Assembly: GCA_029065305.1 (NCBI GenBank) | Contig: JAIEIQ010000271.1 | Coordinates: 1 to 8,516 of the forward strand | Direction: 5' to 3' | Length of the DNA: 8,516 nt | Source of the DNA: Oscillospiraceae bacterium | GTDB taxonomy: Bacteria > Bacillota > Clostridia > Oscillospirales > Oscillospiraceae | Shown: positions 46 to 7,954 of the stretch, piece after piece | Position numbering within the stretch: the first letter of the stretch is position 1 | Layout: every line of letters begins with the position of its first letter | Notes under the pieces: model-generated | What the model saw: the letters and a program-made list of their open reading frames with translations, nothing else | The model's database searches: none | What the model was told of the DNA's origin: nothing | Position numbers and translations under genes: made by a program

Positions 46-738
46 CTACTCCTCCACAAGCGCCACCGCCCGGATAGGCGACCCGGACCCGTCCCGGATG
101 CGGAGCGGCAGGCCAAAGTAGAGAAAGCGCCTTCCCACCAGCTGGCGCAGGTTGCACAGGTTTTCCGTGTTGGTGATCCCATACTCCCCGCACACCAGGT
201 GTCCGGAGAAGTCCAAATCCTGCGGGTGGTCGATGGCCGGCGCGTCCACTCCGATGTTCACAACCCCCCGCTCCGCCAGCCACCTCGCCCCGTCCTGGCT
301 CAAACCGCTGTAGGCGGTCTGCCACAGCTCCGTGTCAAAATGCCTGTCGTAGTGCCCGGTATACATCAAAAAGATGTCCCCCCGCCGCAGCTCCTGCCCG
401 GAGCGCTCCACGGCCCGGGCCAAATCCTCCGGCTCAATATACCGCGCTGCGGGGACGAAGGAGAGATCGGCGCATATGGCGCTGCCCCAAAAGTAGTCCA
501 TGGGCATCCGGTCAATGGTCGGGCCGGACGGCTCGTACTCCCACACCGCGTCCGTATGGGTGCCGCCGTGCTCGCTGATGAGCAGGTTACGGGCGGAAAA
601 GCCCAGCTTCGTGCTCCCCGTCCGGCGCATGTTCTCCTCGTGGGTCATGTTCGTCATGATGAACGTAGGCTGGTGCATGGGGAATACGGACATCCCCTGA
701 TAAATCTCCTGGGACAGGTCTATCAGCCGTACAGACAA
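46..738 (-). CDS. Cyclase-family metal-dependent hydrolase (kynurenine formamidase-like fold)
   Basis: A 230-residue protein of the cyclase/KynB superfamily, whose members are soluble metal enzymes that hydrolyse amide or ring C-N bonds (arylformamidase, isatin hydrolase and similar). The signature HGGTHTDA is at residues 57-64, giving H57, H61 and D63 as metal ligands, and a GVDAPAIDHP segment typical of the family is at about 163-172. The third histidine that usually follows (DAPxHF) is replaced: the sequence reads DAVWEY, with E67 in its place. The start is TTG at 736-738, chosen because a strong AAGGAGG lies 7 bases upstream on this strand and the protein begins with the usual LIDLS strand. 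The gene is monocistronic here and sits behind the long leader at 739-1008. Specific substrate unknown; kynurenine formamidase is only one option and no other tryptophan-degradation gene is visible. Confidence 0.88.
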   Translation of the reverse strand: MSVRLIDLSQEIYQGMSVFPMHQPTFIMTNMTHEENMRRTGSTKLGFSARNLLISEHGGTHTDAVWEYEPSGPTIDRMPMDYFWGSAICADLSFVPAARYIEPEDLARAVERSGQELRRGDIFLMYTGHYDRHFDTELWQTAYSGLSQDGARWLAERGVVNIGVDAPAIDHPQDLDFSGHLVCGEYGITNTENLCNLRQLVGRRFLYFGLPLRIRDGSGSPIRAVALVEE

Positions 739-798: not shown

Positions 799-838
799 AA
801 AAAAGGCCGCTGACAGAATAAGCCATCTGTCAGCAACC
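799..838 (-). terminator. Intrinsic terminator in the cyclase-gene leader
   Basis: On the minus-strand RNA, bases 838-826 (GGUUGCUGACAGA) pair with 817-805 in a 13-bp stem that includes two U.G wobbles (835/808 and 836/807), with an 8-base loop, followed by six U at 804-799. Read on the plus strand those wobbles would be C/A mismatches, so the hairpin is built for leftward transcription, that is, within the 5' leader of the cyclase gene rather than at the end of a rightward gene. The first six bases (838-833) are shared with the antiterminator stem upstream. Confidence 0.85.
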
Positions 839-873
839 TTTTTTTAAACATAAAATGTTTAAAGAACCATTGC
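833..873 (-). promoter_or_regulatory. Antiterminator stem, mutually exclusive with terminator (leader 1)
   Basis: Bases 873-855 pair in register with 851-833 around a UUU loop: about 16 of 19 positions can pair, including outer GCAAU with GGUUGC and an inner A/U-rich run. The 3' arm takes the first six bases of the terminator stem (838-833), so the two structures exclude each other. The same stem occurs at 4950-4990 with pairing-preserving changes (for example U-A to C-G seven pairs from the loop, and C/A mismatch to U-A ten pairs from the loop). Confidence 0.8.
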
Positions 874-894
874 CTCTATTCAGCTGCCCGCCGC

Positions 895-976
895 GCGAAG
901 CACACCGCAGCGGCACTTGCCACTCGCCCGGCACACAGTACCGGACCACCGGCTTCATGTCTCAGGTGCACTGCAC
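895..976 (-). promoter_or_regulatory. Conserved 82-nt structured leader element, copy 1 (riboswitch-like aptamer candidate)
   Basis: Aligns without gaps to 4846-4927. Proposed fold: P1 pairs 976-965 with 906-895 (11 of 12 pairs); a short helix pairs 961-958 with 912-915; P2 pairs 953-950 with 919-922; terminal P3 pairs 944-938 with 928-934 around a UGU triloop. Purine-rich internal loops separate the helices. Against copy 2, P1 shows double compensatory changes: 966/905 C-G against U-A, 968/903 C-G against U-A, 972/899 A-U against G-C. The short helix adds 959/914 C-G against U-A and 961/912 G-C against A-U. This supports RNA function. No match to a riboswitch class I can recall (T-box, TPP, FMN, SAM, cobalamin, THF, ZTP, glycine, guanidine); ligand unknown. 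Confidence 0.82.
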
Positions 977-1014
977 GGAAAGGGGGGCAATACCGAGAAC
1001 GATAGATTGATTTT

Positions 1015-1043
1015 ACTTTAACAGGACTCACCCGCTTTGTCAA
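1015..1043 (-). promoter_or_regulatory. Sigma-A type promoter for leader 1 and the cyclase gene
   Basis: On the minus strand, TTGACA (complement of 1038-1043), 17-base spacer, TAAAGT (complement of 1015-1020) with an extended -10 TGT just before it. The predicted start is near 1008, giving a leader of about 270 nt before the TTG start at 738. The promoter resembles the one ahead of leader 2: both begin TTGACAAAGC and have TGTTAAA at the -10. Confidence 0.8.
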
Positions 1044-1233: not shown

Positions 1234-1578
1234 ATGGGTGAATTTGTACTGAACGCTTCCATGAAAAAGAAGCTGTTTGAGCTGTACAACGAGGTCAATA
1301 AGGACGTCTACGGGTTCGGAACCAACGAGGCCAAGATCTTTTTCGTGGACAATATGATCATCTTCCACGTACAGCACAACCGTGTGCCCTGCCTGGTCGC
1401 GCTGGAGAGGGATTACCCAACCATCAAGGAAATCACCGACGCCGCGATTATGAAGGTCTTTAAAGAGCGGCTGTCCCAGCGGCTGGAGGAGGCCCTCCAC
1501 ATCCGGTCCAAGGCGGTACTCCGGGATTACAATGCCGACAACCTTATCGCGAGCACAATCGTCATCCTGGATCGCTGA
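1234..1578 (+). CDS. DUF2294 (MpsC-like) domain small protein
   Basis: A 114-residue soluble protein, almost entirely one domain resembling DUF2294, the family Pfam now describes as the MpsC component of a sodium-translocating membrane-potential system. Recognisable elements are the N-terminal helix with a YGFG turn (about residues 25-28), the paired strands KIFFVDNMIIFHV, a charged central helix (KEITDAAIMKVFKERL) and a closing strand IASTIVIL. The biochemical role of stand-alone members is unknown to me. Start: ATG 1234 has AGAAGGGAGG 8 bases upstream, while the longer in-frame ATG at 1189 overlaps the promoter -10 region. No membrane segment or signal peptide is visible. It has its own promoter and converges with the Lrp gene 15 bases away, so it need not belong to the neighbouring catabolic genes. 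Confidence 0.75.
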   Translation: MGEFVLNASMKKKLFELYNEVNKDVYGFGTNEAKIFFVDNMIIFHVQHNRVPCLVALERDYPTIKEITDAAIMKVFKERLSQRLEEALHIRSKAVLRDYNADNLIASTIVILDR

Positions 1579-2210: not shown

Positions 2211-2837
2211 ATGGAACTGATTTGCATGGAGGCGAAACGCTATCTGCAACTGCTCGCCTCCGACGCGCCGGCGCCCGGCGGCGGCTCCGCCAGCGCTCTG
2301 TGCGGCGCCCAGGGTGCGGCGCTGATCGCGATGACGGCGCGCCTCACCCTCGGCAGGGCGCGGTACGCCGCCCGTCACGAGGCGTGCCAGGCGATCGCCG
2401 CCGAGGCGGACAGCCTCAGCCGGAAGCTGGCCGCGCAGGTGGATCTGGACGCCGGAGCTTACAGCCAGATGGCCGGCGCGTTTCAGCTGCCAAAAGAGAC
2501 CGGCGCGCAGCAGACAGCCCGCAGGGAGGCCGTCGAAGCGGCCACCCTCCACGGGGCGGAGGTCCCGCTGGAGACCATGCGGCTGGCCGTGGAGGGCCTT
2601 CAGTGCGCCGCCGCGCTGGCGGAGGGCTATAACCACAACTGCGCCAGCGATCTGGGCTGCGGGGCTTACGGACTGCTGGCCTGCGTCAAGGGCGCCTGGC
2701 TCAATGTCCTCATCAACGCCGGCGGGCTCTCCAGCCGCGAGGACGCGGACCGCCTGCGGACAGAGGGCGGAGCGCTGGTCCGCCGCGCCGAGGAGCTCTC
2801 CGCCGCGCTGGACAAGCTGGCCGCCGCCCACCTCTGA
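2211..2837 (+). CDS. fchA: Formimidoyltetrahydrofolate cyclodeaminase-family protein
   Basis: A 208-residue cytosolic helical protein of the FTCD-C/FchA family, which converts 5-formimino-THF to 5,10-methenyl-THF with release of ammonia. The family signature PAPGGGSASAL is at residues 20-30, an acidic helix with QVDLDAGAY at about 76-84, and the C-terminal block NHNCASDLGCGAYGL followed by LNVLIN at about 141-169 corresponds to the usual SDAG...NVRIN block. Length is normal for a stand-alone bacterial cyclodeaminase. Start ATG 2211 has AAAGGAG 7 bases upstream; a second in-frame ATG at 2226 lacks one. It is first in an operon with the formimidoyltransferase 56 bases downstream, the enzyme that makes its substrate. 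The catalytic assignment rests on family and context. Serine cycle or purine-type methenyl-THF cyclohydrolase activity in the same family is an alternative. Confidence 0.9.
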   Translation: MELICMEAKRYLQLLASDAPAPGGGSASALCGAQGAALIAMTARLTLGRARYAARHEACQAIAAEADSLSRKLAAQVDLDAGAYSQMAGAFQLPKETGAQQTARREAVEAATLHGAEVPLETMRLAVEGLQCAAALAEGYNHNCASDLGCGAYGLLACVKGAWLNVLINAGGLSSREDADRLRTEGGALVRRAEELSAALDKLAAAHL

Positions 2838-2893
2838 CGCCGCTCCTCCCCCCGCGAAGCTTCTATTTTTATCATATCACAGGAGGCACGCAT

Positions 2894-3841
2894 ATGTCTA
2901 CACAAAAACAGTATGTATTGGCAGTTCCAAATTTCAGTGAGGGCCGCGACCCCGCAGTGATCGACCAGATTGTCAGTGCCATCCGCGGCATGGAGGGCCT
3001 CAAGCTGGTCGGCGTTGAGCCCGAGGCCGATTTCAACCGCACCGTCGTCACCATGATCGGCGAGCCTGAGGTGATAAAAGCCGCGCTGGTCGCCCTGGGG
3101 CAGGCATCCGTCGCCCACATCGACATGCGCCGGCAGAAGGGAACCCACCCGCGCATCGGCGCGCAGGATACGCTGCCGATCTTCCCCCTGCACAATATCA
3201 CGCTGGAGGAGTGCACCGCCCTGTCGAAGGAGATCGGCAGAGAGTTCCACCAGCGGACCGGGGTTCCCGTGTACTACTGCGGGGAGTGCGCCTCCAATGA
3301 GGAGCGCAGGGCCTTCGCCTATGTCCGCAAGGGGCAGTACGAGGGGCTGGGCCAGCTGCTCCGGGAGACCCGCGACGACCCCGCCCGCCGGGCCGAGTAC
3401 GAGGCCCGCAGGCCGGATCTGAGCACGGACGGCCTGCTCAGCGAGACGGCCGGTGCGACCATCAGCAGCGCGGAGCAGACCGGACTGACCGCCTACAACA
3501 TCTTTCTGGATACGGAGGATGTGGAGGTGGCCCAGGCCGTGGCCCGGACGATTCGCGGACCCTCCGGCGGATTTTCCTCTATCCGCGCGGTGGGGACAAA
3601 GTTCCCGGAGCACAAGGGAACTGTCGTCTCCATGAATATGTTCGACTGCGTGAACCTGCCCATCCCACGCCTGTTCCAGTTTGTCAAAACCGAGGCGGCG
3701 CGCTGCGGCGTCAACGTCACCGGCTCCGCCCTGGTGGGCCCCCTGAAGCTGGAGGCTATTCTCTCCGCGTTCCAGTACTCCCTGGCGCTGGAGGGCTTTG
3801 ACCGCTCCCAGATTCTGGAGACCCATCTGATGGATTTATAG
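2894..3841 (+). CDS. ftcD: Glutamate formimidoyltransferase (FtcD-type)
   Basis: A 315-residue protein with both formiminotransferase subdomains. The family reaction transfers the formimino group from N-formimino-glutamate (or formimino-glycine in purine fermenters) to tetrahydrofolate. VPNFSEGRD is at residues 11-19; the catalytic-histidine block is KGTHPRIGAQD at 82-92, with H85 matching the active-site His of mammalian FTCD; RGPSGGF at 221-227 and HKGTVVSMN at 240-248 mark the second subdomain. Several normally conserved positions differ: T84 stands where KGEHPR has glutamate, F47 where the DxDHNR block has histidine, and the GSE(I/V)VG block reads GSALVG. The formimino donor may therefore not be the classical one (inference). 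Start ATG 2894 has a perfect AGGAGG 7 bases upstream. It lies between the cyclodeaminase and the nitrilase; its TAG stop is part of the nitrilase ribosome binding region. Confidence 0.92.
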   Translation: MSTQKQYVLAVPNFSEGRDPAVIDQIVSAIRGMEGLKLVGVEPEADFNRTVVTMIGEPEVIKAALVALGQASVAHIDMRRQKGTHPRIGAQDTLPIFPLHNITLEECTALSKEIGREFHQRTGVPVYYCGECASNEERRAFAYVRKGQYEGLGQLLRETRDDPARRAEYEARRPDLSTDGLLSETAGATISSAEQTGLTAYNIFLDTEDVEVAQAVARTIRGPSGGFSSIRAVGTKFPEHKGTVVSMNMFDCVNLPIPRLFQFVKTEAARCGVNVTGSALVGPLKLEAILSAFQYSLALEGFDRSQILETHLMDL

Positions 3842-3853
3842 GGGAGGCGGAGT

Positions 3854-4831
3854 GTGAAGCCGCTTCAGGACACCTGCCGGATAGCGGTGGTCCAGGCCGC
3901 GCCGGTCATGTTCGACAAGGACGCCTGCCTCCAAAAGGCGCTGGAGCTGATTGACTCCTGCGCGGCCCGCGGCGCGGAGCTGATTGTCTTTCCAGAGCTG
4001 TTTCTTCCCGGCTATCCCTATGGAATGACATACGGCTTTACGGTCGGCAGCCGCACCGCCGCAGGGCGCGAGGACTGGAGCACCTATTACGATAACTCCC
4101 TCCTGGCGGCCGGCCCGGAGCTGCGGCGGCTGAGGGACAGCGCCCGGACACACGGCGTCTACATCAGCATAGGGTACTCGGAGCGCGACAGCCTCTTGGC
4201 AACGCTCTACAACTCCAACCTGATGATCGCCCCGGACGGCGCTGCGCTCAACCACCGGAAGCTGAAGCCCACCGGCAGCGAGCGGGTGGTGTGGGGGGAC
4301 GGCGACCGGGACTTCTTCCCGGTTATGGACACCCCCTGGGGGCCCATGGGAAATCTAATCTGCTGGGAGAGCTATATGCCCCTGGAGCGGACAGCGCTCT
4401 ACCAAAAGGGGGTCGCGATCTACATCTCCCCGAACACAAATGACAACCCGGAATGGCAGCACACCATCCGCCATATCGCGATTGAGGGGCACTGCTATTT
4501 TGTAAACTGCAACATGTTCTTTACCAGGGCGGATTACCCCAAAACAGCCAGCGGCGGCGCGGAAATCGCCGCTCTGCCGGAGATTGTCTGCCGCGGCGGG
4601 AGCTGCGTCATCGACCCCTACGGGCACGAGGCGTCCGAGACGCTCTGGGACAGAGAGGGCGTGGTTTACGCGGAGCTCACGATGCGGCACGTGCCCGCCA
4701 GCAGGATGGAGCACGATGTGTGCGGCCACTACGCCCGCCCGGATGTTCTGTCGCTGCGGGTAAAAGAGGACGATCCCCCCCGCTTGACAAAGCCGAAAAA
4801 TTGTGTTAAACTGATAAAAAATTTATATTAA
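3854..4831 (+). CDS. Branch-1 nitrilase (carbon-nitrogen hydrolase superfamily)
   Basis: A 325-residue cytosolic enzyme of the nitrilase superfamily with the complete Glu-Lys-Cys triad: E48 in FPELFLPGYP, K136 in NHRKLKPTGSERVVWGDGD, and C170 in LICWESYMPLERT. The block HRKLxPTxxERxxWGxGD together with CWExYMPL is typical of true nitrilases (branch 1; R-CN to acid plus ammonia), a group that includes cyanide dihydratases, rather than of amidases, cyanoalanine-independent N-carbamoylases or omega-amidases. The position equivalent to GDGxG reads GDGDRD, which is slightly unusual. Nitrilases usually form spiral oligomers. The start is GTG 3854 with GGGGAGG 6 bases upstream; that site overlaps the stop of the formimidoyltransferase gene, which suggests translational coupling. 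A nitrilase coupled to folate formimino transfer is not a standard pathway. The last 50 bases of the gene contain the next operon's promoter. Confidence 0.88.
   Translation: MKPLQDTCRIAVVQAAPVMFDKDACLQKALELIDSCAARGAELIVFPELFLPGYPYGMTYGFTVGSRTAAGREDWSTYYDNSLLAAGPELRRLRDSARTHGVYISIGYSERDSLLATLYNSNLMIAPDGAALNHRKLKPTGSERVVWGDGDRDFFPVMDTPWGPMGNLICWESYMPLERTALYQKGVAIYISPNTNDNPEWQHTIRHIAIEGHCYFVNCNMFFTRADYPKTASGGAEIAALPEIVCRGGSCVIDPYGHEASETLWDREGVVYAELTMRHVPASRMEHDVCGHYARPDVLSLRVKEDDPPRLTKPKNCVKLIKNLY
4784..4812 (+). promoter_or_regulatory. Promoter for leader 2 and the abgT-like operon
   Basis: TTGACA at 4784-4789, 17-base spacer, TAAACT at 4807-4812 preceded by TGT (extended -10). It lies within the 3' end of the nitrilase coding sequence; predicted start is about 4819. 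It closely resembles the promoter of leader 1 (TTGACAAAGC start and TGTTAAA at the -10). Confidence 0.8.
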
Positions 4832-4845
4832 GTTGTCTGCTTTAT

Positions 4846-4927
4846 GTGCGATATGTCCGAAATATGGGGCTGGCGGGCCGGCACTGCGTGTCGGGCGGTT
4901 GGCGGGTATTGACGGGATATGCCGCGC
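4846..4927 (+). promoter_or_regulatory. Conserved 82-nt structured leader element, copy 2 (riboswitch-like aptamer candidate)
   Basis: Gap-free counterpart of 976-895 on the other strand. P1 pairs 4846-4857 with 4916-4927 (11 of 12 pairs); a short helix pairs 4861-4864 with 4907-4910; P2 pairs 4869-4872 with 4900-4903; P3 pairs 4878-4884 with 4888-4894 around a UGC triloop. By hand count 51 of 82 bases match copy 1 and about 26 of the 31 differences are transitions, many in paired partners. The element begins about 27 bases after the predicted transcription start and is followed by a 22-base linker to the antiterminator, against 21 bases in copy 1. Ligand or partner unknown. Confidence 0.82.
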
Positions 4928-4949
4928 TTGAGTGGATAGCCGCGCCTGA

Positions 4950-4990
4950 GCAATGGTTTTTCGAGCATTTTATGTTTGAGAAAAGGTTGC
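4950..4990 (+). promoter_or_regulatory. Antiterminator stem (leader 2)
   Basis: Bases 4950-4968 pair with 4972-4990 around a UUU loop; 17 of 19 positions can pair, with G.U wobbles. The 3' arm includes 4985-4990 (GGUUGC), which is also the first six bases of the terminator stem. Compared with copy 1, all substitutions in this stem keep or restore pairing. Confidence 0.8.
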
Positions 4991-5024
4991 TGACAGATAT
5001 GTCCGATCTGTCAGCAGCCTTTTT
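4985..5024 (+). terminator. Intrinsic terminator in the abgT-operon leader
   Basis: Bases 4985-4998 pair with 5006-5019 (14 bp, one U.G wobble), 7-base loop, then UUUUU at 5020-5024. It lies about 155 bases upstream of the transporter start, so it acts on its own operon's leader, and it would also stop read-through from the nitrilase operon. The stem core GCUGACAGA is identical to the leader 1 terminator. Confidence 0.87.
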
Positions 5025-5178
5025 CTGTTTTCACGGCACGTCCGCTGGTCCCCGCCTACCGCGCGGCAGCTGGACGGATGGACCTATGGTTTCCCCGGTC
5101 TGCGGCGGTTCAATGGACAAGCCGGCTGGACGCGCCGCGGACCGTGGCAACAAATATAAAAGAGAGGTGAAGAACTAC
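5025..5178 (+). other. Distal part of leader 2, between terminator and abgT-like start
   Basis: About 150 bases without a supported gene. The first dozen bases (CTGTTTTCA) still resemble leader 1 downstream of its terminator. Beyond that only local GC-rich inverted repeats are seen (GTCC at 5040-5050 against GGAC near 5075-5085), which are not persuasive. The stretch ends with the ribosome binding site AGAGAGGTGA at 5161-5170. Confidence 0.5.
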
Positions 5179-6735
5179 ATGGGCGAAAGAAAGAATCCGA
5201 AGTTGAAAACAGCATCCGGAGGGTTTCTCGGAGCAGTAGAGCGGATCGGGAACAGGATGCCCCACCCGAACTACATCTTTATGATTCTGACGGTGTTTAT
5301 CGTCATCGTTTCGGGACTTGCGGCGGGGTCTGCCGTTATCCATCCGGGCACCGGCGAGGAGGTTGTCGTCAGAAGCCTGGCCAACGCGGATGGCCTGCGC
5401 TGGTTTTTGACCAGCGTGACCAAAAACTTCATCAATTTTGCTCCCCTTGGAAACGTCATCGTCTGCATGATCGGCATCGGCATCGCGGATGAGGCCGGCC
5501 TTCTGGGCTCGGCGCTCAGGCATGTCATGGTGGGCGCGCCTAAAACCGTCGCCACCGCGATCATCATCTTCGCGGGCGTCATGGGCAACATGGCCGGCAG
5601 CGCGACCTTCGTCATTATCCCCCCGCTGGCCGCGATCATCTTCAAGGCCATGGGCCGCCACCCCATCGCCGGGGTAGCCGCCGGCTTCGCGGGTGTTGCC
5701 GCCGGGCTCAACGCCAACCTGCTCATCACAACCACAGACATCACCCTCTCGGGCATCACCACCAACGCCGCCCAGATTGTTGCCCCGGACTTCGCGGAAA
5801 ATCAGGCGGGCAACTGGTACTTCATGATCGCCTCCACCGTTCTGCTCACCGTTGTGGGCACCGTCGTGCTGGAGAAGCTGGTGGAGCCCCGGCTGGGCAG
5901 GTATGACGCCAGTTCCGCCGCAGACAGCGAGGAGGACGTGAAGCGGGAGGCCGAGCTGATGCACCTGACCGACGGCCAGCGCAAGGGGCTGAAGATGGCC
6001 CTGATCACACTGATCGTCTACGTCGTTCTGCTGATGATCTGCGTAGTCCCGTTCAACGGCATTCTGCGCGATCCCGTCAGCCACACCATCGTACCCTCAC
6101 CCTTCATCAACGGCATGGTCGCGATCATCACCATCGGCTTCGCGGCGGTGGGCATCGCCTACGGCATTCCGGCGGGCACCATCAAAAAGTCCGACGACGT
6201 CATTCGGATGGCGACCAAGTCTATGAACGGCTTCTCCGGTTTTATCATTCTCTGCTTCTTCGCCGCGCAGTTCTGCGAGGTGTTCGCCTATACCAACCTC
6301 GGCATGTGGCTCTCCGTCAAGGGCGCCGACGCCCTGGCTCAGGCCGGCTTTACGGGCATTCCGCTGATTATCTGCTTCGTAATCCTCGCCTCTCTCATCA
6401 ACTTCCTGATTGGAAGCGCCTCAGCGAAGTGGACCCTGCTGGCCCCGATTTTTGTTCCGATGTTCATGAACCCCTCTATCGGCTTCCACCCCTACTACAC
6501 GCAGTCCGCCTACCGCATCGCGGACTCGGTCACCAACTGCGTCTCGCCGCTGGAACCCTTCATGCCCTACATTATTTCCCTGATGCAGAAGTACGACAAG
6601 AAAGCCGGTTTGGGAACCGTGGTCTCGGTTATGCTTCCCATCGCCGGCGCGTTTTGGCTCTCCTGGGTTTTGCTGCTGGTCATCTGGTCCATCGCCAAGC
6701 TGCCCCTCGGCCCCGGCGTCGGGATCATGTTTTAA
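5179..6735 (+). CDS. AbgT-family transporter
   Basis: A 518-residue polytopic inner-membrane transporter of the AbgT family (E. coli AbgT, p-aminobenzoyl-glutamate uptake; MtrF and YdaH are structurally known members). The family start VERIGNRMPHP is at about 20-30, followed by hydrophobic segments throughout, the first re-entrant region LNANLLITTTDITLSGI with D187, and the second GSASAKWTLLAPIFVPMF at about 412-430, where S415 and W418 fall in the substrate-site block. C-terminal LPLGPGVGIMF is also typical. Length matches the family. Start ATG 5179 follows AGAGAGGTGA and is where homology begins; the reading frame stays open to a GTG at 4846, but that extension runs through the structured leader and terminator. 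The gene is 31 bases upstream of the M20 amidohydrolase, mirroring the abgAB-abgT link in E. coli. The cargo may be an N-acyl amino acid other than p-aminobenzoyl-glutamate. Confidence 0.92.
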   Translation: MGERKNPKLKTASGGFLGAVERIGNRMPHPNYIFMILTVFIVIVSGLAAGSAVIHPGTGEEVVVRSLANADGLRWFLTSVTKNFINFAPLGNVIVCMIGIGIADEAGLLGSALRHVMVGAPKTVATAIIIFAGVMGNMAGSATFVIIPPLAAIIFKAMGRHPIAGVAAGFAGVAAGLNANLLITTTDITLSGITTNAAQIVAPDFAENQAGNWYFMIASTVLLTVVGTVVLEKLVEPRLGRYDASSAADSEEDVKREAELMHLTDGQRKGLKMALITLIVYVVLLMICVVPFNGILRDPVSHTIVPSPFINGMVAIITIGFAAVGIAYGIPAGTIKKSDDVIRMATKSMNGFSGFIILCFFAAQFCEVFAYTNLGMWLSVKGADALAQAGFTGIPLIICFVILASLINFLIGSASAKWTLLAPIFVPMFMNPSIGFHPYYTQSAYRIADSVTNCVSPLEPFMPYIISLMQKYDKKAGLGTVVSVMLPIAGAFWLSWVLLLVIWSIAKLPLGPGVGIMF

Positions 6736-6766: not shown

Positions 6767-7954
6767 ATGGATAAGAACACACAGAATCAGATTTTTGCCC
6801 ATGTAGACGCCATCGCGGAGGATCTCACGGCCATGTCCAGGGCTATCTGGGCGCACCCGGAGCTGGGGTATGAGGAGCGGTTCGCGGCGAAAACGCTGAC
6901 GGACTATCTGTCCGGGCGGGGCTTTGCGGTTGAGCGCAATGTCAGCGGCTATGAGACGGCGTTTGTCGCCCGCAAGGGGGACGGAAAGGGCCCCTGCGTG
7001 GCCTTTGTCGCCGAATACGACGCACTTCCCCAGCTGGGGCACGCCTGCGGCCACAACCTCTACTGCTGTTCGGCCGTCGGCGCGGCGGTCGCGCTGGACG
7101 AGCTGACGGGCGGCAAGGGGCTGACGATTATGGTGGCTGGCACGCCTGCGGAAGAGACCTGCGTCAAGGACGCCTCGGGCAAGGTCAAGATGACTCAGGA
7201 CGGCGTGTTCGACGGCGTCGACATCGCGATGATGTGCCACGCCGAGGACAGCGTCGTGATCGAGCGCACCCTCGTGGCGGTAACCTCCACCAGCGCCGTC
7301 TTTCACGGAAAGAGCGCCCACGCCGGCGGCTCGCCCGAAAAGGGGATTAACGCGCTGACAGCCGGCATGCTGACCCTCAACAATATCAACGCGCTGCGCC
7401 AGCACTTTGTGGCCGGAAACATCGTCAACGGGATCATCACAAAGGGCGGCGTTATGGCAAACACCATCCCCGACGAGTGCGAGCTGCTGTTCTCCATCCG
7501 CGCCGCCAGCAAGGAGGAGCGGGACGAGCTGTCCGAAAAGGTTGACCGCTGCCTGCGCGCCGCCGCGATGGTCACGGGCTGCACCGTTGACATCGAAAAG
7601 ACCCCCAACCCCTACGACGACACGCTGCCCAACCACCGCCTGGGCCTGTCCTACCGCAGGGCGCTGATGGAGCTGGGCTATCAGGAGGAGGAGATCCTGC
7701 AGTCCGACCGGCGGAGCTACGGCTGGGACTTCGGCAATATCAGCCACGTCTGCCCGGGCCTCGCACCCTATATGAAGATCGGGCCGGTCGGATTGGTGGG
7801 GCACACGGATGAGTTCCGCGAGTGCTCCAACTCCCCCATGGCCTATAAATCCCTGCTCGACGCGGCGAAAAGCCTCTGCTACACGGCGTGGGACTACCTC
7901 TCCGATCCGGAGATGCAGCGGGAGGTCAGAGAGGAATTTGAAAAGAACAACTAG
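6767..7954 (+). CDS. M20-family amidohydrolase (AbgB/PM20D2-like)
   Basis: A 395-residue zinc-type peptidase/amidohydrolase of family M20, closest in motif pattern to AbgB and the PM20D2/ACY1L2 group that cleave N-acyl or dipeptide-like amides. Metal and catalytic motifs are complete: EYDALPQLGHACGHNL at 83-98 (H92, H96), TPAEE at 126-130 (paired glutamates), CHAE at 157-160, the dimerisation-domain GKSAHAG at 181-187, and C-terminal GHTDEF at 345-350. No signal peptide, so cytosolic. Start ATG 6767 has AGGGAGG 6 bases upstream and the gene follows the transporter by 31 bases, so both are made from one transcript under leader 2. The likely role is hydrolysis of the imported AbgT substrate. 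No separate AbgA-like second subunit is visible, suggesting a homo-oligomer. Confidence 0.9.
   Translation: MDKNTQNQIFAHVDAIAEDLTAMSRAIWAHPELGYEERFAAKTLTDYLSGRGFAVERNVSGYETAFVARKGDGKGPCVAFVAEYDALPQLGHACGHNLYCCSAVGAAVALDELTGGKGLTIMVAGTPAEETCVKDASGKVKMTQDGVFDGVDIAMMCHAEDSVVIERTLVAVTSTSAVFHGKSAHAGGSPEKGINALTAGMLTLNNINALRQHFVAGNIVNGIITKGGVMANTIPDECELLFSIRAASKEERDELSEKVDRCLRAAAMVTGCTVDIEKTPNPYDDTLPNHRLGLSYRRALMELGYQEEEILQSDRRSYGWDFGNISHVCPGLAPYMKIGPVGLVGHTDEFRECSNSPMAYKSLLDAAKSLCYTAWDYLSDPEMQREVREEFEKNN

Follow-up and report, generated by a model that had tools for sequence, protein, structure and literature searches.

The 8,516-nucleotide (nt) stretch analyzed here (positions 1 to 8,516 of contig JAIEIQ010000271.1, assembly GCA_029065305.1, from an Oscillospiraceae bacterium; hereafter the window) carries two similar leaders on opposite strands, one on the plus strand between a nitrilase gene and the gene of an AbgT-family transporter (abgT; copy 1), the other on the minus strand upstream of a cyclase-family gene (copy 2), and raises the question of whether one signal controls both operons. 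Our folding and comparative analyses indicate a real duplicated, structure-conserving attenuator that belongs to no known family and is not yet a class, and whose sensor and direction of control are unproven. With somewhat less than even confidence, we read the two leaders as copies of one promoter-and-leader unit that would attenuate transcription, its long hairpin sensing a breakdown product common to both operons.

Homology between the leaders begins at the −35 box and runs through the terminator (4783-5031, plus strand, in the abgT leader; 1044-794, minus strand, in the cyclase leader). The local alignment begins at CTTGACA and ends just past the terminators, and when wider flanks were aligned, 20-column blocks held 6-18 matches within these limits and 0-10 outside them, with no clear similarity there. 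The whole-leader alignment scored 178, against a maximum of 57.5 for dinucleotide shuffles (0/1000 reached the observed score), and the promoter region (39 vs. 27), upstream element (62.5 vs. 45.5), core with a few flanking bases (55.5 vs. 43) and antiterminator hairpin (42.5 vs. 28) each exceeded the highest of 1000 such shuffles. These five scores bear out the proposal, made in an initial annotation of this DNA, that it holds two homologous leader RNAs; the promoters and the terminator/antiterminator anatomy that it proposed are likewise supported. The same annotation had described a gapless 82-nt part, about 62% identical with about 26 of 31 changes being transitions, which is exact (51/82 identical between 4846-4927 and 976-895; 31 changes, 26 transitions); this core stands, but the extent and anatomy of the unit had to be corrected, since the alignment spans the limits given above and the core of each copy lies inside an outer stem. 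The promoters share the −35 box, the spacing (Table 1) and a TG ahead of the −10 box. That of abgT sits in the final 48 bases of the nitrilase open reading frame (ORF; 4784-4831), as if the end of the nitrilase gene had been extended into the promoter unit, or the promoter unit had been inserted there.

The upstream element of each copy consists of a single long, irregular hairpin, capped by a 3-nt loop and enclosed by the outer stem; the outer stem of copy 1 has its counterpart in copy 2 (989-985/889-885), where it is extended by further stems. The antiterminator downstream pairs AGCAAU (copy 1) or GGCAAU with GUUGCU around an inner A/U-rich stem, and because its 3′ strand doubles as the initial part of the terminator 5′ strand, antiterminator and terminator are mutually exclusive. 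Minimum-energy folds of the growing transcript, computed in 8-base steps, show the antiterminator forming ahead of the terminator, which appears after its 3′ half has emerged, in both copies; in silico, the leaders contain an expression platform with mutually exclusive structures. The terminator stem of copy 2 lies 60 bases from the TTG start of the cyclase gene, and a promoter scan listed none between them, so this gene is probably transcribed by read-through of the terminator.

Several comparisons suggest that the fold is under selection. Across its 45 pairs, every scorable cell (88/88) holds a standard pair, and in seven pairs both bases differ between the copies (five of these pairs lie in P1 of the initial annotation, and the inner hairpin and the antiterminator have one each), in agreement with the earlier claim that structure was kept through compensatory changes. 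Sliding of the partners lowers pairing to 33.7-50.0%, a control that is biased toward the fold, which was derived from the same two sequences. Compared with shuffles, the whole leaders are lower in folding energy by 6.15 and 6.41 standard deviations, partly owing to their terminators, and the RNAalifold consensus energy was reached by 5/1000 column shuffles for the core and by 0/1000 for the antiterminator. In a drift control, an equal number of transitions and transversions was applied to one copy with no structural constraint: starting from copy 1, the simulated sequences averaged −22.6 kcal/mol (−41.2 for the real copy 2), and in the reverse direction −23.2 kcal/mol (−40.1 observed), with 0/500 simulations reaching the observed energy each time. 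We regard this as good evidence, from a single sequence pair, that structure was kept through changes at 62% identity; a structured sensor kept by selection is what these two copies, and two copies only, point to.

In searches for further copies, the two leaders were modeled with the terminator (R1) and without it (R2). Sensitivity was gauged with a model built from the sequence and fold of copy 1 only, which recovered copy 2 at 87.4 bits (expectation value, E, 8.9e-21 over the window; default filters). The R2 searches of family, class and phylum samples used stricter filters, under which both known copies are still recovered and weak relatives may be lost; the genome samples overlap, and their counts are not additive. 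The window's own genome (377 contigs, 70% complete) yielded no third copy: besides antisense rows of the leaders, other rows reached at most 19.1 bits, and these weak rows (19.1, 17.4 and 11.2 bits) are terminator-like or partial. R2 retrieved the own genome only from 400 family genomes, from 86 phylum genomes and from 19 chosen genomes with related genes (18 besides the own), and had no match at 18 loci that carry the closest relatives of the cyclase or AbgT gene. At 85 AbgT loci R1 gave a single row, of 14.1 bits. Viral contigs (searched with one pattern), plasmids and phages held no DNA match to the leader, and the AbgT relatives in viral contigs are at most 42% identical; among GTDB species, the closest AbgT relatives share 53-58% identity (7 of 80 loci kept), and the cyclases of 11 loci from other genomes 64-77%.

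The remaining candidates were rejected. R1 matched eight of 25 genus genomes, the own included, and the alignments inspected (6 of 11 rows, then 5 of 5) are terminators in which the sensor part is skipped or badly paired; they exclude the minus-strand row of L018, and L026, first listed, gave no row on realignment. The sole row confined to the sensor tip (L024, 22.4 bits) is a GC-rich hairpin with flanking A/T runs directly after an ORF, which looks like an ordinary terminator; among 23 loci, including 11 wider cyclase loci, R2 again matched L024 only. Apart from the own genome, a blastn search of 99 relatives hit three genomes, in pieces of 21, 24 and 29 bases that were judged from the DNA to be chance. 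Because no credible third copy was found in any sample, the unit appears to be rare, or confined to a poorly sampled lineage, and the initial suggestion of a candidate new RNA class is so far unsupported for want of a credible third example. The GC and tetranucleotide make-up of the window falls inside the spread seen among 12 other contigs of its genome, giving no sign of misbinning, which is still conceivable because strong matches are so few among relatives (AbgT in 5 of 149 relatives; cyclase in 1 of 394 genomes of the order, the own included). The AbgT leaders of two 53-54% identical relatives (L039:5900-5960 and L041:5900-5960) contain, near the promoter, a short inverted repeat of the GCATATC...GATATGC type that is unlike the window's leader.

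What the leaders might respond to is suggested by their genes. The window encodes FTCD_C, FTCD_N, a nitrilase, the AbgT transporter, an M20 amidohydrolase, an AsnC-type regulator and the cyclase. In purine-fermenting clostridia, the xanthine pathway leads by way of ureidoimidazole carboxylate, aminoimidazole, imidazolone and formiminoglycine. A 2012 genome paper states that xanthine-pathway genes could not be located in C. acidurici (PMC3519856), whereas, according to a 2025 paper, the xanthinase cluster is by now known from Clostridia and Bacilli (PMC12507026). Six of the 11 cyclase loci outside the window's genome have an FTCD_N gene close to the cyclase gene; among these 11, L131 and two genes of L129 were annotated in detail. 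In L131 (5337-13130), genes for PucR, cyclase, FTCD_N, an allantoinase-like amidohydrolase, an isochorismatase-family protein, UbiX and UbiD form a row, with the PucR regulator on the other side; by our assignment of genes to steps, this reads as most of a xanthinase-type purine pathway, in which the cyclase would be a candidate 4-imidazolone hydrolase. Since the window is without the first xanthinase steps, its substrate may differ. In Neofamilia massiliensis (L038:2924-9560), an adenine-deaminase-like gene, M20, abgT, cyclase and FTCD_N genes stand together, the leader being absent, a grouping that suggests that the gene set works as one pathway. Within the window, a promoter-like site upstream of the FTCD_C gene is followed by a 12-pair inverted repeat (2109-2164; GTGCGGACCATT...AATGGTCCGCAT), a possible operator for the adjoining AsnC-type regulator.

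Table 1. Coordinates of the two leaders and associated genes in the window.
Feature	Position	Strand	Remarks
abgT-leader promoter (TTGACA, 17 nt, TAAACT)	4784..4812	+	inside 3′ end of nitrilase ORF; predicted start near 4819
cyclase-leader promoter (TTGACA, 17 nt, TAAAGT)	1015..1043	-	predicted start near 1008
upstream element, copy 1	4832..4940	+	outer stem 4832-4842/4930-4940 around long hairpin, loop 4885-4887
upstream element, copy 2	875..1006	-	outer stems 1006-1002/879-875, 996-992/884-880, 989-985/889-885 around long hairpin
82-nt core, copy 1	4846..4927	+	ungapped alignment to copy 2
82-nt core, copy 2	895..976	-	ungapped alignment to copy 1
antiterminator hairpin, copy 1	4949..4991	+	-16.4 kcal/mol folded alone
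antiterminator hairpin, copy 2	832..874	-	-10.9 kcal/mol folded alone
intrinsic terminator, copy 1, 19 pairs	4980..5024	+	5′ strand common to antiterminator
intrinsic terminator, copy 2, 19 pairs	799..844	-	5′ strand common to antiterminator
cyclase-family gene (PF04199), downstream of copy 2	46..738	-	TTG start
gene of rare 114-amino-acid protein, divergent from cyclase leader	1234..1578	+	weakly MpsC-like, 17.9 bits vs. Pfam cut-off 23
FTCD_C, FTCD_N and nitrilase genes, between the leaders	2211..4831	+	
AbgT-family transporter gene, downstream of copy 1	5179..6735	+	
M20-family amidohydrolase gene, downstream of abgT	6767..7954	+	

In the attenuator that we tentatively favor, the terminator would win without a signal; a metabolite binding the upstream hairpin would hold the antiterminator long enough for RNA polymerase to pass, and abgT-M20 and the cyclase gene would be switched on together. 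The signal could be an imidazolone, a formimino amino acid or a related purine-ring breakdown product, which we infer because the locus has formiminotransferase and cyclodeaminase genes and because a relative of the cyclase lies in a xanthinase-like cluster. The anatomy is supported in silico; the ligand, the direction of control and the choice between RNA- and protein-based sensing are conjectural, and the leaders might share one ligand and might be riboswitches. A more specific form, possible though in our view doubtful, is a metabolite-sensing RNA with a junction-less hairpin sensor of about 110 nt and its own antiterminator, duplicated as a whole unit on opposite strands and turning on uptake and ring-opening genes for an imidazolone or formimino compound. 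We know of no riboswitch for such compounds. If the sensor is RNA, the locus would add a hairpin-only metabolite sensor, a case of a whole promoter-sensor-terminator unit copied between operons of one pathway, and a direct handle on the compound degraded by this AbgT, M20, nitrilase, cyclase and formiminotransferase locus. Even a protein-dependent attenuator would place two opposite-strand operons under one signal and open the pathway to testing by simple transcription assays.

A number of results weigh against the attenuator that we favor. From the antiterminator onward, the terminator state is the more stable (−35.2 vs. −27.3 kcal/mol in copy 1; −32.5 vs. −20.0 kcal/mol in copy 2), an equilibrium preference of about 8 and 12.5 kcal/mol, respectively. 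The upstream element is without a multi-stem junction, a fold in which the 5′ end masks an antiterminator strand was seen in copy 2 only, and the proposed link from upstream hairpin to antiterminator is unproven. As to conservation, 4/500 letter shuffles equal every pairing measure, and the drift control is moderate for pairs kept (mean 22.0 vs. 27/31 observed, reached by 62/5000 simulations; in reverse, mean 21.2 vs. 26/30, reached by 80/5000) and weaker for double changes (observed number reached by 44/5000 and 243/5000). By model, the leader is absent at the seven nearest AbgT loci and the 11 cyclase loci from other genomes, and R2 gave one extra row among 391 class genomes (21.4 bits, E 0.039), which has several unpaired positions and was taken as chance. 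Finally, the searches turned up two copies only, both in one locus, so that most of what their sequences share is explained by common descent, and the pair makes no independent class.

Some of these points fit other explanations as well. By analogy with antiterminator proteins of the LicT and HutP kind, the same anatomy could receive its signal through an RNA-binding protein gripping the antiterminator or the long hairpin, which we hold to be on the unlikely side. In favor of such a protein, the antiterminator is clearer than the core in the column shuffles, the long hairpin has no junction, and the 114-amino-acid protein encoded divergently from the cyclase leader is one candidate: it is rare (nine proteins listed, itself included, from 5.8 billion clustered proteins), and one of these, 73% identical to it, is listed with a longest contig of 11973 bases, as is a cyclase of 86% identity, in keeping with one shared contig. 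This protein has a confident predicted fold (pLDDT 92) with no clear match, PADLOC gave no result for it, and a literature search on MpsC/DUF2294 returned, among the matches listed, unrelated papers only. No HutP was among the 50 matches listed, which excludes nothing, and no HutP/LicT-type domain was found among the eight window proteins scanned, the rest of the genome not having been searched. The units could instead be chance duplicates of constitutive partial terminators, or of small RNA genes, that sense nothing, with a long hairpin that just persists. This would account for the complete terminator closing each unit and for the lack of a credible third copy; we consider this improbable, as copy 2 is so near the start codon of its gene, the antiterminator is kept in both copies, and the long-hairpin fold is kept at 62% identity, with no drift simulation reaching its energy.

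The leader could also act through translation. The initial annotation had dismissed protein coding on the strength of a stop codon, an argument that fails, as it used another frame: the frame from an aligned ATG (4864; 958) is open in both copies, for 42 codons in copy 2 and through to abgT in copy 1. A short leader peptide read from this ATG, with ribosome stalling setting the fold, would be a case of translation-coupled attenuation, and the initial residues are similar by eye. Against it, the copy 1 frame has no stop ahead of abgT, no good ribosome-binding site is seen by eye ahead of either ATG, and a search for relatives of the leader part of the frame running into abgT found none scoring; the changes are spread evenly across codon positions 1, 2 and 3 (7, 9 and 6), so that coding conservation is unsupported. 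Protein coding of the leader thus appears unlikely, and control by a leader peptide very much so.

How, then, does the preferred metabolite-sensing attenuator compare with known systems? The initial view that the fold is not a known riboswitch held when checked against Rfam: searches of the two leaders gave 15 and 23 rows, all below family cut-offs and nearly all on or including the terminator region. Among the papers listed by literature searches, no title or beginning of an abstract describes this leader. The covariance models of the NMT1-motif and the T-box, which we take to be present in the searched Rfam library, matched neither leader at E up to 10. T-box leaders have a long first stem followed by antiterminator and terminator, with a UGGU-type feature, and the present leaders resemble them in this order of parts and in a UGGU stretch within the antiterminator; the genes downstream are of other than the usual T-box kind. 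Terminator-type control is shared with the PyrG leader (RF02371) and other attenuators, and PyrG is the best row of copy 2 by bits, covering 794-869 only at 22.6 against a cut-off of 65. The NMT1-motif (xanthine/uric acid) riboswitch is likewise a hairpin-type sensor near purine and histidine-related genes; the class is described as an OFF switch known from Proteobacteria, with one bacterium having adjacent copies in opposing orientations (PMC7373994). Compared with it, the leader hairpin is longer and is seated on a terminator/antiterminator pair. In LicT/BglG- and HutP-type systems, antitermination depends on a protein, and the present leaders share with them a hairpin that overlaps the 5′ strand of the terminator.
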